A stretch of 16,184 bases of DNA from JBFMHD01 sp040752395 [NCBI: Candidatus Hydrogenedentota bacterium] (GTDB lineage: Bacteria; JBFMHD01): the NCBI GenBank assembly GCA_040752395.1, contig JBFMHD010000048.1:1-16184 (forward strand), in the 5' to 3' direction. How positions within the stretch are numbered: position 1 is the stretch's first letter; the number at the start of each line of letters is the position of its first letter. The translations under genes were made by a program, and so were the position numbers. The notes below the pieces were generated by a model that was not told the origin of the DNA, searched no databases, and saw only the letters and a list, made by a program, of their open reading frames with translations. This document shows positions 3,131 to 13,564 of this stretch, piece after piece.

Positions 3131-5650
3131 TTATGACGTAATATCAATTTTTGTCAAGAGAGTAACAGCCAGTAAAAGTATATAGTAACAAGTCCCGATT
3201 AGAAATAAAGCACAACCAGCTGTGAATGAGAGAGGCCTATATTTAAATGATACAATATGTTCACCTTTGTCTATTTCTACACCCCTTACTAAACCATTAA
3301 TACGAAATATCTCCTTCTCTTTGCCATCAACATACACTCGCCAGCCTCTGTAATAAGAATCAACTAAAACTAATATCCCATCAGAAGTTGTCTTCGCAAG
3401 TATCTCAACGTTGTCAGGCCCGTATTTTATAATCTCAGTTTTCCATTGAGGATTGGGTTCCACAATATTAAGATTAATATCTTTCTCTATAATTGCTATC
3501 TCTTTAAAATTAAAACTATTATCAAGTAATATTTGTTGGGCTTGTTTAAAATTGTCTGCTTTTAATGTTTTAAATACAATATATGTTCTGGGACGGAATT
3601 CCTTATTTTCAAAAATAGTTACATCACTGCCTTTATATACAACGGGTAATCCTAAATCAATTCTATTAGTACAGAAAATATATCTTACACCGAGAAAGGA
3701 ATATATCCTCAATTTTTCGATAAAGTCCTTATAAAAGGGGGTTTCAGAATCACTCACTCCGGCAAACCATAGTCTGTGATATCCCTTAAGAGGTTTTGTA
3801 AGTAACAAATTATTGATAAGATTATCTGTCTCTTCTGGTGTTAAAGAATTGATGTATCTAACATCGTATAAATTATAAACACCGGAATAATTAGGGAGAA
3901 ACATCCCATCTACACCGATAATTCTGAAAAGAGATTGTGAGTTTGTTACTTTTTTAATTGGGGGAGTAACAGGGAATGGGTTTCTACGTAATGGTAAGCC
4001 ATAATTGGATGAGAGTTCCAGTATAATGTATGATAATAAGGATATGATTATAAAAAATAAAGCTAAAAATTTTTTTCTAATAAATATTATACTTAACCAG
4101 CCAAACATAAGCGGGATAAATAATAGATAACTCCATAGAGTATCATATCCTTTTGGAATATAAAACCATAATTCAAGAATTATAAGGATGCATAATAATT
4201 TTGTCCTTTGAAAGCCATCAGTGTATTTATTGAAGATAAAGTATAATATTAAGAAGAAGCAGATAAGATGTAAGAAACTTAAGATATAAGAATAATTATA
4301 AAAGTTCGAGAGGGGATGCGGCATAGTAATACCAGCTAAAGATTTATCTAAAGAAAGTTTACTTAAGAGAATCAATAGTAAAATTACAATAAATGAGATA
4401 ATAATATTTTTCTTACTTATGTAAGATATATTCTGCAACCCGATAGCAGATGTTATAGCAAGACAGAGACAAAAGACAGGGCCAGACCATTTTTGAAACC
4501 ATATAATATTAAAAAAAGGCAGGTATCCGAGGTATTTAAATGGTGGGATACCAAATTTATGGAGTAATATTGAGAGACCGCAGACAGTAAAAAAAATAAA
4601 TTCTATTCTATGTTTAATCTCTCTTTTCAAAAACAACGAAAATATCGCTACCCACACAAATAAACTAACATAACCACCTACAATATCCTGATATCCTGAT
4701 TCAGGGAAAGATATAAAAAAATTAAATTTTAATATTACAGCTGGTAACAAGATAAGCACTATTTCTTTAAGACTTAAAAAAATAGAAAATGGGATTTTCA
4801 TTGTTTCTGTATGTATATGATAAGAATTAAAAACCAGTTCTAAAAATAACATTAATAAAGGTGAGGCAAACATAAAAGCTACTATCCACACTTGAATGTG
4901 TTTTAGCAATTCGTTCTTTAAAGCTATAACATCTCGTCGTCTCCATAAACCAAGTAACGTGTACAAAAACCCTAATGCTAAAGCATAGAAACAGACCTCA
5001 GGCTGACCAGCGTATAAAATCAGGGCTATGACTACTGATAAGAACAATTGATTAGATATTTTATTATTTTGTAAAAGAACCTCTATAGCATATAATAGAA
5101 GTGGTATCATCATACCGACATTTGTCATCTGTTCCAGATATACGAACCATACAAAAGAGCCTGAAAATTGATATATTATTCCGGCGATGAAAGAAGGCAA
5201 AATATCTAATTGTAATTTTCTACAGAATAGAAAAGTGAAAAAACCAGCTAACACAAACCTGAATAAAACAAAATAATCCCATAACCAGTAGGGAGAGATA
5301 TTTTCTAAGATTTGATAAGGGAAGAATGAGCGTGTGCTATATTGCGCTGCCAGAGGTGTACCAAGCCCTATATATGGATTCCATAATGGTAGCTTATTGT
5401 TTTTTAGCATATCGCCTGTGATTTTATTTATTGGTTCTTCATAATAGATGGGGGTGGATAAATCAATTGAGAGGGTATTGAGTTGAGGCCGTATTTTACT
5501 ATCATCCATTACAGGTGATGGATAGTAGAGAGAGGGTATGAAAGTTCTTTCAAGAAACGTAACAGGATAATAAATGATAAAGACCAGGGCAGCATAAACC
5601 AGAACGAATTTTACTTTCTCATTAAGCTTAAAGTTATTTGTTTTTATCAT
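3131..5650 (-). CDS. YfhO-family polytopic membrane protein
   Basis: An 839-residue membrane protein of the YfhO family (GT-C-like fold). There is a first membrane helix at about 13-33, an extracytoplasmic loop with the family hallmark LPLWNPYIGLGTP (WNPY at 90-93), many further hydrophobic helices up to about residue 550, a polar C-terminal domain, and a last helix near 805-830. The C-terminal SYYRGWRVYVDG followed by an SFKYRP motif is typical of YfhO. In Bacillus subtilis, YfhO is implicated in glycosylating teichoic acid using a lipid-linked sugar. Here the acceptor is unknown and is probably a cell-surface glycan. It is the first gene of a three-gene operon with the kinase and REC-PilZ genes. 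The ATG has no SD. A weak -35-like TTGACT at 5687-5682 (minus strand) follows the flagellin terminator, without a good -10. Confidence 0.85.
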   Translation of the reverse strand: MIKTNNFKLNEKVKFVLVYAALVFIIYYPVTFLERTFIPSLYYPSPVMDDSKIRPQLNTLSIDLSTPIYYEEPINKITGDMLKNNKLPLWNPYIGLGTPLAAQYSTRSFFPYQILENISPYWLWDYFVLFRFVLAGFFTFLFCRKLQLDILPSFIAGIIYQFSGSFVWFVYLEQMTNVGMMIPLLLYAIEVLLQNNKISNQLFLSVVIALILYAGQPEVCFYALALGFLYTLLGLWRRRDVIALKNELLKHIQVWIVAFMFASPLLMLFLELVFNSYHIHTETMKIPFSIFLSLKEIVLILLPAVILKFNFFISFPESGYQDIVGGYVSLFVWVAIFSLFLKREIKHRIEFIFFTVCGLSILLHKFGIPPFKYLGYLPFFNIIWFQKWSGPVFCLCLAITSAIGLQNISYISKKNIIISFIVILLLILLSKLSLDKSLAGITMPHPLSNFYNYSYILSFLHLICFFLILYFIFNKYTDGFQRTKLLCILIILELWFYIPKGYDTLWSYLLFIPLMFGWLSIIFIRKKFLALFFIIISLLSYIILELSSNYGLPLRRNPFPVTPPIKKVTNSQSLFRIIGVDGMFLPNYSGVYNLYDVRYINSLTPEETDNLINNLLLTKPLKGYHRLWFAGVSDSETPFYKDFIEKLRIYSFLGVRYIFCTNRIDLGLPVVYKGSDVTIFENKEFRPRTYIVFKTLKADNFKQAQQILLDNSFNFKEIAIIEKDINLNIVEPNPQWKTEIIKYGPDNVEILAKTTSDGILVLVDSYYRGWRVYVDGKEKEIFRINGLVRGVEIDKGEHIVSFKYRPLSFTAGCALFLIGTCYYILLLAVTLLTKIDITS

Positions 5651-10115: not shown

Positions 10116-11087
10116 ATGAAGAATATTTTGATTACAGGTGGGGCAGGATATATCGGCTCCCATCTCGCTAAGTTTTTTAAAAATAAAGGATATAATATCA
10201 TAATAATTGATAATTTTGAAAGAAGCTCAAAAAAAGTGATTAATGTTCTAAAAGTGGATAAATACTTTGTGATGGATTTAAGAAGAGATGACTTAACAGA
10301 AATTCTTAAAGGGATTGATATCGTTTTTCATTGCGCAGCATATATAGATGTTTCTGAGTCTATAAGAAATCCTGATATTTATTTTGAAAATAATGTTCTG
10401 GGTACCCATAAATTATTAAGCCAGATGAAAAAAGCAGGTGTTTACAATTTAATCTTTTCCTCATCTGCTGCTGTTTACGGTGATCAGGGAGATAGAATGT
10501 TAACAGAAGAAGATATAAAAAAGCCGATACAGCCCTATGGCTTCAGTAAGAGCGTTATGGAAGACTGGATAGAATGGTTCTGCAAGATTTTTGGTTTTAA
10601 TGCGATGGTATTCAGATATTTCAATGCTTGCGGATGTGATGAAGATGGATTAATAGGTGAGGCACATCAACCAGAAACACATCTTATACCACGCGCATTA
10701 CACTCACTTTTTAATAAAGAAGAAGAATTTTATGTTTATGGTAATGATTATGATACTAAAGATGGGAGTTGTATAAGGGATTATATTCACATACTCGATA
10801 TAGTCGATGCTTATAGTAGAGGTATAAAATATTTACAGGAAAATAGGGGGTTTTTTGTATTTAATCTGGGAAATAACAGTGGTTATTCGGTTTTCGAAGT
10901 TTTGACTGAGATAGAAAAAGTAACAGAATTAAAACTGAAGTATAAAATAGTTCAAAGGAGGATAGGTGATCCGGCTATTTTAGTTGCATCTAATAGTAAA
11001 GCAAGAGAGGCTTTATGCTGGAAACCTGCAAGAAATCTGTTTGATATGATCTCTTCTCAGTATAAATACCTTAAAAGAGACCTGTAA
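10116..11087 (+). CDS. galE: UDP-glucose 4-epimerase
   Basis: A 323-residue NAD-dependent short-chain epimerase that interconverts UDP-glucose and UDP-galactose in the cytoplasm, feeding surface polysaccharide synthesis. The Rossmann NAD motif is GGAGYIGS (8-15). The catalytic residues are S117 in SSSAAVYG, Y141 and K145 in YGFSK. The segments RYFNACGCDEDGLIGE with HLIPRAL, and DYDTKDGSCIRDYIH, are typical of GalE rather than of other sugar epimerases, although a 4-epimerase of N-acetylated sugars remains possible. The length is slightly under the usual 330-340. The ATG at 10116 fits the NAD fold, but no SD is near it. It may be co-transcribed with the kinase upstream. Confidence 0.92.
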   Translation: MKNILITGGAGYIGSHLAKFFKNKGYNIIIIDNFERSSKKVINVLKVDKYFVMDLRRDDLTEILKGIDIVFHCAAYIDVSESIRNPDIYFENNVLGTHKLLSQMKKAGVYNLIFSSSAAVYGDQGDRMLTEEDIKKPIQPYGFSKSVMEDWIEWFCKIFGFNAMVFRYFNACGCDEDGLIGEAHQPETHLIPRALHSLFNKEEEFYVYGNDYDTKDGSCIRDYIHILDIVDAYSRGIKYLQENRGFFVFNLGNNSGYSVFEVLTEIEKVTELKLKYKIVQRRIGDPAILVASNSKAREALCWKPARNLFDMISSQYKYLKRDL

Positions 11088-11095
11088 AAAAGTTA

Positions 11096-11123
11096 TTGAC
11101 TAAAATTAAAAAAGTAAGATTAT
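11096..11123 (+). promoter_or_regulatory. Promoter of the rpsO-pnp operon
   Basis: TTGACT (11096-11101), a 16-bp spacer and GATTAT (11118-11123); an alternative -10 is TATTAT at 11121-11126. It begins 8 bp after the galE stop. Transcription would start near 11130, just before the predicted rpsO leader pseudoknot, which supports the call. Confidence 0.55.
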
Positions 11124-11133
11124 TATAAAAGAA

Positions 11134-11176
11134 CCTGAAAATGAATATCCTCTATTTCAGGCAATTTTTCAGAGGA
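11134..11176 (+). promoter_or_regulatory. Predicted pseudoknot in the rpsO leader (S15 autoregulation)
   Basis: Stem 1 pairs CCTGAAA (11134-11140) with TTTCAGG (11155-11161), seven pairs. Its loop contains TCCTCT (11148-11153), complementary to AGAGGA (11171-11176), the SD of rpsO. Loops of 7, 1 and 9 nt give a regular H-type pseudoknot that would bury the SD. S15 is known to repress its own mRNA in Escherichia coli through a pseudoknot at the ribosome-binding site, and other bacteria use unrelated leader folds. Binding of S15 to this fold is inferred. Confidence 0.6.
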
Positions 11177-11185
11177 GATAGTATT

Positions 11186-11452
11186 ATGTTAACCAAGGAG
11201 AAAAAAAAGGAAGTTATAGAGAGGTTCGGGAGAGGGAAGAACGATACCGGCTCACCTGAAGTGCAGATAGCTTTATTAACAGAAAGAATAAATGAGCTAA
11301 CAGAACATCTTAAAAAACATGAAAAGGATTATCATTCAAGGCGTGGGTTATTAACGATGGTAAGCCGTAGAAGAAAACTTATTGCTTATCTTAAGACCAC
11401 GAACGCGGAGAAGTATAAAGAGCTTATCTCAAAACTTGGATTGAGAAAGTAA
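11186..11452 (+). CDS. rpsO: 30S ribosomal protein S15
   Basis: An 88-residue protein matching the usual 89-residue S15, which binds 16S rRNA early in assembly of the small-subunit platform. The conserved block [15 protein letters not shown] is followed by [16 protein letters not shown] and [11 protein letters not shown], which carry the rRNA-contacting residues. The start is ATG at 11186, giving the family N-terminus [14 protein letters not shown], with the SD AGAGGAG at 11171-11177. An upstream in-frame ATG at 11141 lies inside the predicted leader pseudoknot and has no SD, so I reject it. pnp starts 18 nt downstream, the common rpsO-pnp arrangement. Confidence 0.98.
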
Positions 11453-11470: not shown

Positions 11471-13564
11471 ATGAATGAAAAGAAATTTTTAAGAAAAGAG
11501 GTAGTCGTAGAGGGTAAAAGTTATATTTTTGAGACAGGGAAAGTTGCAAGACAGGCTAATGGCAGTGTTATTGTACAATGTGAAGGAACGGTTGTTTTGG
11601 GAGCTGCGGTGGCTTCAAAAGAGCCGGTTGAGGGTGTGGATTTTTTTCCGCTAATTGTGGATTATCGTGAAAAATACTATGCTGCTGGTAAGATACCAGG
11701 TGGATTTTATAAAAGAGAGGGTAAGCCAGGTGATAGAGAGACCCTTATCTCAAGACTTGCTGATAGACCCCTGCGGCCTTTGTTCCCGGATGGTTTCAGG
11801 AATAATGTGATAATAACTCTTCAGACTTTATCAGCAGACCAGGTTAACCCGCCTGATATACTTGCTATACTCGCTGCTTCTTCATCGCTTGTGCTTTCTG
11901 ATATACCATTTGAAGGACCTATCGGAGTTGTGAGGATTAGCAGATTAAAGGATGAGTTTGTAATAAATCCAACCTACGATAAAATAGAAGATATCGATAT
12001 AGACCTTGTGGTAGCAGGAACAAAAGATGCTGTTGTTATGGTTGAGGGCGGAGCTAAAGAAGCTAAAGAAGAAGATATACTTGATGCAATATATTATGCT
12101 CACCAAAAGCTACAGCCTTTTATTGAGATTCAGAACCAGATGAGTAAAGAATTAGATATAAAGAAATCTGAGTTTCCCATAAAAACCGTAGCACCTGAAC
12201 TTGAATGCTTTATTGAGGATATGATTCTTGATGACCTGCAAAAGGTAAACAAAAATAAAGATAAAACTCTAAGAAATGAGGCGGTTTTGAATGTTTTTAA
12301 TAAAGTCCATGATTATTTTAAACAAAACAGAGAAGATTATGAGGACATTAAAATAGATATCCAGGAGATACTGAATAAACTTGAGCGTAATCTTGTAAGA
12401 CAGGAAACAATAGCTACCGGCATAAGGGTTGATGGTCGTGGCTATGATGAGATAAGGGAGATAAGTGTTGAGGTGGGGGTTTTGCCGCGGGCACATGGTT
12501 CAGCTCTTTTCAGGCGGGGACAGACACAGTCTCTTGGTAGTACCACACTTGGAACAACTGAGGATGAACAAAGATTTGACAATATTGAAGGTGAGGGTAG
12601 CAGCAGATTTATATTACATTATAATTTTCCTCCTTTTTCAGTAGGTGAAGCAGAGCCTATTAAAGCGCCAGGCCGTCGGGAGATAGGTCATGGTGCTTTA
12701 GCACAAAGGTCACTTGAGGCTATTATACCTGATGAAGAAGATTTCCCATATACTGTACGCGTAGTCTCTGAAATACTTGAATCAAACGGTTCATCATCTA
12801 TGGCATCGGTATGTTCAGGATGTTTATCGATGATGGATGCAGGGGTTCCGATTAAAACTCCGGTTGCTGGTATCGCTATGGGTTTAATTAAAGAGGATGA
12901 TAATATTGTGATTCTAACCGATATTCAGGGGATAGAGGACCATTGTGGAGATATGGATTTTAAGGTGGCTGGTTCAGCAAATGGTGTAACAGGGCTTCAG
13001 ATGGATATAAAAATTGCCGGTATTACAAAAGAGATACTCTCAAATGCACTTGAGAAAGCACGTGTAGCAAGATTAAAAATACTCGAAAAGATGCAAAGCA
13101 TTATACCTGCTCCAAGAGAAGAATTAAAACCATATGCTCCGAGAATTACATTTGTCAATCTACCAGCAGATAAAATTGGTGAAGTCATAGGACCCGGTGG
13201 TAAAGTTATAAGAAACATTCAGGAAAAAAGTGGGGCAAAGATTGAGATACAGGAGGATGGCAGAGCCCTGATTATTTCCACTGAAGAAGAAGCAAGTAAT
13301 AAAGCAAAGGAAATGATAGAGGCAATAATCAAAGAAATAGAGGTTGGGGATATCTATGAGGGAACCATTATAAGGATTATGCCGTATGGTGCATTTGTTA
13401 ATCTTTTACCAGGTAAAGATGGGTTACTTCATATTTCTGAAGTGGATTATAAAAGAATTAAAAGTATTGAGGATTATTTCAGGATAGGAGATAAAGTTAA
13501 AGTTAAAGTTATTGAGATTGATAGAGAAGGGAAGATTAGTCTTTCAAGAAAAGCTTTACTTTAA
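11471..13564 (+). CDS. pnp: Polyribonucleotide nucleotidyltransferase (PNPase)
   Basis: A 697-residue PNPase of full family length that degrades RNA from the 3' end using phosphate and can add nucleotides in reverse; it works as a trimer, often with a degradosome. Order: first RNase PH domain (about 10-145), helical domain, second RNase PH domain (about 315-545), KH domain near 557-617 with the GPGG loop in VIGPGGKVIRNI, and an S1 domain from about 625 to the end. The metal-binding catalytic segment DIQGIEDHCGDMDFKVAG starts at residue 484 (D490 and D496 correspond to E. coli D486 and D492). AGAGG about 12 nt before the ATG is the SD. It is the second gene of the rpsO operon, with 43 bp to the next gene. 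Confidence 0.98.
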   Translation: MNEKKFLRKEVVVEGKSYIFETGKVARQANGSVIVQCEGTVVLGAAVASKEPVEGVDFFPLIVDYREKYYAAGKIPGGFYKREGKPGDRETLISRLADRPLRPLFPDGFRNNVIITLQTLSADQVNPPDILAILAASSSLVLSDIPFEGPIGVVRISRLKDEFVINPTYDKIEDIDIDLVVAGTKDAVVMVEGGAKEAKEEDILDAIYYAHQKLQPFIEIQNQMSKELDIKKSEFPIKTVAPELECFIEDMILDDLQKVNKNKDKTLRNEAVLNVFNKVHDYFKQNREDYEDIKIDIQEILNKLERNLVRQETIATGIRVDGRGYDEIREISVEVGVLPRAHGSALFRRGQTQSLGSTTLGTTEDEQRFDNIEGEGSSRFILHYNFPPFSVGEAEPIKAPGRREIGHGALAQRSLEAIIPDEEDFPYTVRVVSEILESNGSSSMASVCSGCLSMMDAGVPIKTPVAGIAMGLIKEDDNIVILTDIQGIEDHCGDMDFKVAGSANGVTGLQMDIKIAGITKEILSNALEKARVARLKILEKMQSIIPAPREELKPYAPRITFVNLPADKIGEVIGPGGKVIRNIQEKSGAKIEIQEDGRALIISTEEEASNKAKEMIEAIIKEIEVGDIYEGTIIRIMPYGAFVNLLPGKDGLLHISEVDYKRIKSIEDYFRIGDKVKVKVIEIDREGKISLSRKALL

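Follow-up and report, generated by a model that had tools for sequence, protein, structure and literature searches.

Ribosomal protein S15 is autoregulated in several phyla through unrelated RNA folds (PMC10931766). The window, a 16,184-nucleotide stretch of DNA from a Candidatus Hydrogenedentota bacterium (contig JBFMHD010000048.1), raises the question of whether one more such fold exists. In it, a hairpin loop just upstream of rpsO, the S15 gene, is complementary to the gene's own Shine-Dalgarno (SD) sequence. Could this leader close into a pseudoknot that hides the SD, and would S15 be the ligand that stabilizes it?

The rpsO leader and its pairing potential

The leader lies within the 98-nt gap that follows an epimerase-like gene (end 11087), and the spacing between AGAGGA and the start codon of rpsO, ATG 11186, is nine bases. 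The initial annotation had described a 7-bp stem whose loop contains TCCTCT, complementary at six of six positions to the SD, with loop lengths of 7, 1 and 9 nt. All of its letters and coordinates are correct, and the loop lengths are exact in the sequence (Table 1). The two helices were recognized by inspection, and their 7 + 6 pairs, all 13 of them Watson-Crick, outline a putative H-type pseudoknot in which the SD provides one strand of S2. Judged from the letters, such a knot is possible and rarer than chance would provide.

The transcript had also been predicted to start a few bases 5′ of the knot. A sigma-70-like promoter match is indeed present there, but it is weak: it agrees at 9 of 12 positions, and the stretch contains seven such sites against a shuffle mean of 4.3 (sd 1.8). 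A second ATG, at 11141 within L1, is in frame with rpsO and stop-free to 11185, which would add 15 codons. With no SD upstream of it, this start is probably not used, and an N-terminal extension of S15 was rejected on that ground and because S15 homology begins at 11186.

Table 1. Features of the rpsO leader and its surroundings in the window, with the conserved leader hairpin of a second lineage in the last line.
Feature	Position	Strand	Basis
Sigma-70-like promoter candidate (weak), TTGACT-16-GATTAT	11096..11123	+	9-of-12 match
S1, 5′ strand, CCTGAAA	11134..11140	+	sequence; S1 hairpin energy
L1, 7 nt, ATGAATA, containing an in-frame ATG without a preceding SD	11141..11147	+	sequence
S2, 5′ strand, TCCTCT, anti-SD within the S1 loop	11148..11153	+	sequence; loop duplex scan
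L2, 1 nt	11154	+	sequence
S1, 3′ strand, TTTCAGG	11155..11161	+	sequence
L3, 9 nt, CAATTTTTC	11162..11170	+	sequence
S2, 3′ strand, AGAGGA, the rpsO SD	11171..11176	+	sequence; S2 hairpin energy
rpsO, ribosomal protein S15, 88 aa	11186..11452	+	TIGR00952, 134.8 bits (cut-off 63.65)
pnp, polynucleotide phosphorylase, downstream, presumed operon	11471..13564	+	TIGR03591, 988.5 bits
Conserved rpsO hairpin, GCUUGGGnnnUGGnUAnnCCnnnCCCAGGC-UUAAAAAUAAA-SD	L154-L183, e.g. L154:1439-1503, L181:1439-1503, L166:1765-1829	minus in L166	covariation

Taken alone, the S1 hairpin is worth -6.2 kcal/mol and the S2 hairpin -5.8 kcal/mol. The whole pseudoknot comes to about -10.9 kcal/mol, a rough value built from approximate stacking energies and an approximate Dirks-Pierce-style penalty. 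By this estimate, the knot would be favored over either single hairpin even when ligand-free. The SD is the best duplex partner of the S1 loop within 11162-11290 (-11.2 kcal/mol of stacking), and the loop hexamer has near-equal partners inside rpsO, AGAGGG at 11231-11236 (-10.4) and AGAGG at 11220-11224 (-9.3). The plain fold of 11125-11200 does not stand out (z -0.17). An alternative helix that might have served as a switch, 11135-11140 with 11167-11172, was rejected at -2.9 kcal/mol.

To gauge how rare the arrangement is, we scored H-type pseudoknots with an S2 overlapping the SD by their total stacking energy and kept the best one, using an approximate stacking table and ignoring loop penalties; the SD was kept in the shuffles. 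The window scores -22.4 kcal/mol. None of 1,000 shuffles in a first run reached this value. When 90 nt were dinucleotide-shuffled, 1 of 12,000 sequences was equal or better, as were none of 8,000 after a simple letter shuffle. Shuffling only the putative untranslated region (11130-11170) raised the count to 12 of 12,000. With the S1 arms fixed and the letters of the loop and L3 mixed, 336 of 8,000 were equal or better, so that once a hairpin with such a loop composition exists, an SD match of this quality is roughly a 4% event. Stem and SD pairing together are rare, but the second, conditional on the first, is not very rare.

The same scan was applied to 895 leaders, 120 from rpsO and 775 from other genes. 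The former derive from 142 S15 frames in 154 sequences after removal of leaders lacking an SD of at least 4, those near a contig end and duplicates. The latter precede open frames of at least 150 codons with an SD of at least 4, an uncurated set that includes spurious frames. A rule of at least seven Watson-Crick pairs in S1 and at least six in S2, fixed post hoc to the window's own stem lengths, is passed by the window alone (1/895). At p ≤ 0.0034 against their own shuffles, the strict-geometry scan flags 2 of 120 rpsO leaders and 8 of 775 others, and looser loops give 3/120 versus 11/775. Among AT-rich leaders (GC < 40%), the same threshold is reached by 2 of 49 from rpsO and by none of 131 from other genes. 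SD-capturing knots are not clearly enriched among the rpsO leaders scanned, and these counts reveal no general habit of SD capture at that gene. The scan does not flag the E. coli operator (p 0.20), whose loop pairs elsewhere than the SD; it is therefore no general detector of S15 operators.

Several other rpsO leaders have features of their own. Just 5′ of rpsO, stretches in loci L018 (about 3300-3342; GGTTCGATCCC-like) and L019 (about 3300-3338) resemble the 3′ part of a tRNA by eye and yield SD-capturing hits in the looser scan; ARAGORN finds no tRNA in either locus. The leader in L115 carries a long perfect inverted repeat, GCGCATAGCGACCCACCCCTTCCCCTCC...GGAGGGGAAGGGGTGGGTCGCTATGCGC, which stops about 31 nt short of the rpsO start and looks terminator- or repeat-like.

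Known S15 operators and the determinants of S15 recognition

Rfam's S15 leader model, RF00114, has no gathering match anywhere in the window, and the sole match listed for 10950-11300 (351 bases) at E ≤ 10 is IS009, at 8.7 bits. The E. coli operator, our positive control, scores 117.6 bits with RF00114. In that operator, a loop of the pseudoknot contains the SD and start codon, and the ribosome is entrapped (PMC10931766); our pairing scan places the best partner of its hairpin loop at +3..+10 of the coding start. The window leader belongs to the same gene and likewise has a hairpin loop that could pair downstream to form a pseudoknot at the start, but its loop pairs the SD itself. To call this the expected design for S15 feedback is therefore loose, since the E. 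coli loop pairs the first codons and leaves the SD in a loop.

Recognition of the E. coli operator depends on two sites, both essential: a U-G/C-G motif read via His41, Asp48 and Ser51, and a loop-1 A read by Arg57 (58 with Met) (PMC8470358, PMC4684408). The S15 of the window, DETERMINANTS, retains His41, Asp48 and Ser51, as well as Thr21, Gly22 and Gln27 (roles as given in PMC4684408), and so keeps the residues for the U-G/C-G motif, as in E. coli. Unlike the E. coli protein, it has Thr57 at the position of the arginine. M. smegmatis S15 also does without it (Leu58), so loss of the arginine alone is not fatal. The U-G/C-G step itself, another difference from E. coli, is absent from both window stems. 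Shifting the pairing so as to produce one (C11135-G11161, U11136.G11160, A11159 bulged) gives +2.0 rather than -6.2, about 8 kcal/mol worse. We reject membership of RF00114: there is no covariance-model match and no U-G/C-G step, the SD rather than the first codons is paired, and residue 57 is threonine.

Operators from other bacteria offer partial parallels. The rpsO pseudoknot of mycobacteria and Actinobacteria sits upstream of the start codon, as here, and in the M. tuberculosis model kissing loops hide the SD (PMC8470358). Mycobacterial S15, too, is altered at the arginine position. However, the mycobacterial RNA retains the U-G/C-G motif (PMC10931766), of which the window shows none. The operators of B. 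(Geobacillus) stearothermophilus and T. thermophilus compete with the ribosome for the start site (PMC10931766), and in its effect, occlusion, the window element would be nearer to them than to entrapment in E. coli. They mimic the three-way junction of 16S rRNA (h20-h22), whereas we see two helices in the window leader by inspection, of which the plain fold contains one; the junction models searched are those that Rfam contains. A leader from the alphaproteobacterium Rhizobium radiobacter is structured and includes a ribosome-binding site (PMC4137082), as the window element would; no S15-leader model in Rfam matches the window. S15 leaders of Flavobacteria, Halobacteria and Methanomicrobia are listed in PMC7247131, where the terms "pseudoknot" and "Shine-Dalgarno" are absent. 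The literature searched, to the extent that its text was accessible, held no description of the window's fold.

Relatives of the window and a conserved hairpin in another order

Degrees of relatedness cannot be ranked with a protein as short as S15, so S15-based searches do not exclude a relative, and the phyla covered are a minority. A PNPase scan of genome contigs returned no identity above 52% among the best 80 of 409 relatives. Two genome sets (11 and 12) and the phyla of six centres held nothing close, with near-full-length PNPase reaching at most 52% and 54% across those phyla. Over residues 1-580, identity was 50-51% in five of five genomes, and it was at most 55% in a set of 199 genomes, among the 28 that exceeded the chosen score limit. 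Viral contigs gave nothing in the PNPase scan or in a motif-pattern scan, and among the rpsO leaders of 95 S15-hit sequences, which comprise the window itself and some duplicate genomes, none looked window-like by eye. In a tree of S15 and PNPase, the window sits on a long branch adjoining four loci titled Sumerlaeota (support 0.868). Its lineage looks isolated, and we regard the placement beside Sumerlaeota as weak. Confidence in an S15 operator is capped accordingly, as the leader is a single sequence for which these searches reached no close relative.

Apart from the window, the rpsO leader of locus L130 passes both the strict and the looser SD-capture scans; that of L107 passes the looser one only. 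L130 belongs to the order of genome G137, in which 39 of 41 genomes contain S15, and there the leader can be compared. A hairpin is present in 27 of the 30 loci fetched, a degenerate form in L167 counted in. We aligned these 27 leaders (26 distinct), leaving the hairpin-less L161, L171 and L172 out of all counts, and built a model, R1, from them. Changes on both sides occur in 8 of the 11 hairpin pairs, a number reached by 4 of 500 shuffles. Pairing extends to 91.3% of the alignment cells (76.2% in shuffles), with a covariation score of 0.589 where shuffles give 0.266; 0 of 500 shuffles did as well on either measure. In 18 of the 26 distinct rows, a U.G pair adjoins the basal C-G, a U-G/C-G step of the sort recognized by E. 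coli S15. Across the class, 35 of 41 genomes have an R1 match at the start of rpsO (E < 1e-4), 27 of them in the model and 8 independent, with scores of 31.6-73.1 bits.

Pairing of the hairpin loop with the SD region has a different fate in this order. Runs of at least five pairs occur in 2 of 27 leaders (1.4 expected) and runs of at least four in 11 of 27 (6.6 expected); L154, which has the same leader as L130, has a run of four. In the one comparable case checked, then, the hairpin is real and its SD capture looks incidental. None of four R1-type loci tested has a Rfam gathering match, and this leader is possibly an unlisted S15 operator. As an element, it is better supported than that of the window.

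The two leaders share a hairpin just 5′ of the rpsO SD and loops that are loosely alike by eye, AAAUGNNUANUCC in the L130 type, with a 3′ arm ending AGGC, and AAAUGAAUAUCC in the window, with CAGGC. They differ in that R1 has a longer stem, mostly carries the U.G/C-G step and does not conserve SD capture. We rejected the window as a member of R1, since with filters off it scores 6.6 bits with the hairpin skipped. With filters on, R1 finds no match at the leader across the 16-kb window, its two hits being at 4145 and 2265. In all, the model was run over 86 of 153 loci. It weakly matches an rpsO leader from the same phylum, L125:1762-1813 on the minus strand (16.0 bits, E 0.5), in which GCUU...AGGCUUA precedes the SD; this is possibly a distant version of the R1 leader.

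A candidate operator and the alternatives to it

The reading that we tentatively prefer, at less than even confidence, is that the rpsO(-pnp) transcript carries an SD-occluding pseudoknot operator stabilized by S15. The leader would form hairpin S1, and the loop UCCUCU would then pair with the SD AGAGGA and close the H-type pseudoknot. Free S15, in excess over 16S rRNA, would bind and stabilize the knot, making the SD unavailable to the 30S subunit, and initiation would fall. Once S15 is drawn onto rRNA, ribosomes or bS1 could unfold S2 and translation could resume. The mode would be direct occlusion of the SD, as in competition-type S15 operators, rather than E. coli entrapment. The complementarity, its geometry, its rarity among shuffles and other leaders and its location before rpsO are established; formation of the knot in the cell, its presence on the transcript, its repressive effect and the role of S15 as ligand are inferred. 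Feedback by S15, first proposed from the identity of the gene alone, is only partly supported.

Several observations favor this S15 operator. The 7 + 6 bp are exact, the loops are feasible, and few dinucleotide or leader-only shuffles do as well. No other leader passes the strict rule, and no AT-rich leader of another gene reaches the threshold. The estimated energy of the knot is well below that of either hairpin. The gene is a true S15 gene whose product keeps the motif residues, in a family autoregulated in several phyla, and S15-binding, S15-responsive RNAs close to an SD originate readily (PMC5100602). The single sequence, the missing U-G/C-G step, Thr57 and the lack of an RF00114 match weaken it, as do the 336 of 8,000 shuffles given the hairpin, the two matching sites inside rpsO, the unclear enrichment at rpsO and the loss of SD pairing among the relatives of L130. 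A more specific form of the proposal, an independently evolved operator, a minimal H-type knot that has the SD as its second strand and is recognized by S15 without the U-G/C-G step, the three-way junction and the operator-reading arginine, appears to us doubtful but conceivable.

Chance is the main rival, and a serious possibility. An AT-rich leader may simply contain a short hairpin whose pyrimidine-rich loop matches a purine-rich SD, picked out as the best-looking of many features in 16 kb. The 4% frequency of S2 given S1, the fit of UCCUCU to the purine tracts within rpsO, the ordinary plain fold and the near-background SD pairing in the L130 order speak for coincidence. Against it stand the shuffles of the whole leader and of its untranslated region (1 and 12 of 12,000), the uniqueness of the window among 895 leaders under the strict rule and the position of the site before rpsO, a gene known for leader control.

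Occlusion of the SD might also operate without S15, in a leader tuned for low initiation or a temperature-sensitive knot opened by bS1 or the ribosome, which would set the rpsO level without feedback. With the SD itself as the S2 strand, a ligand would be unneeded; either stem alone is of modest stability, and the known S15 determinants were not found in the window. Ribosomal protein genes, however, require high expression, and static occlusion would be odd for one of them. Autogenous control of rpsO is, moreover, widespread (PMC10931766), and we consider this explanation unlikely.

Least probable of the four is that S1 alone is functional, as an S15-binding or mRNA-stabilizing hairpin like that in the order of G137, with incidental SD pairing: the L130-type hairpin is conserved at the same place, with a loosely similar loop and 3′ arm and no SD capture, but the score that R1 gives the window is far below those of its 35 strong matches, and its 16-kb scan passes over the leader.

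If the window leader is indeed an S15 operator, it would extend the known set of unrelated RNAs that serve S15 feedback by a very small member of 43 nt. Resting on one sequence without comparative support, the case carries modest weight. Such an operator would bear on how easily these elements originate and on what RNA S15 recognizes beyond the two known rRNA-like motifs.
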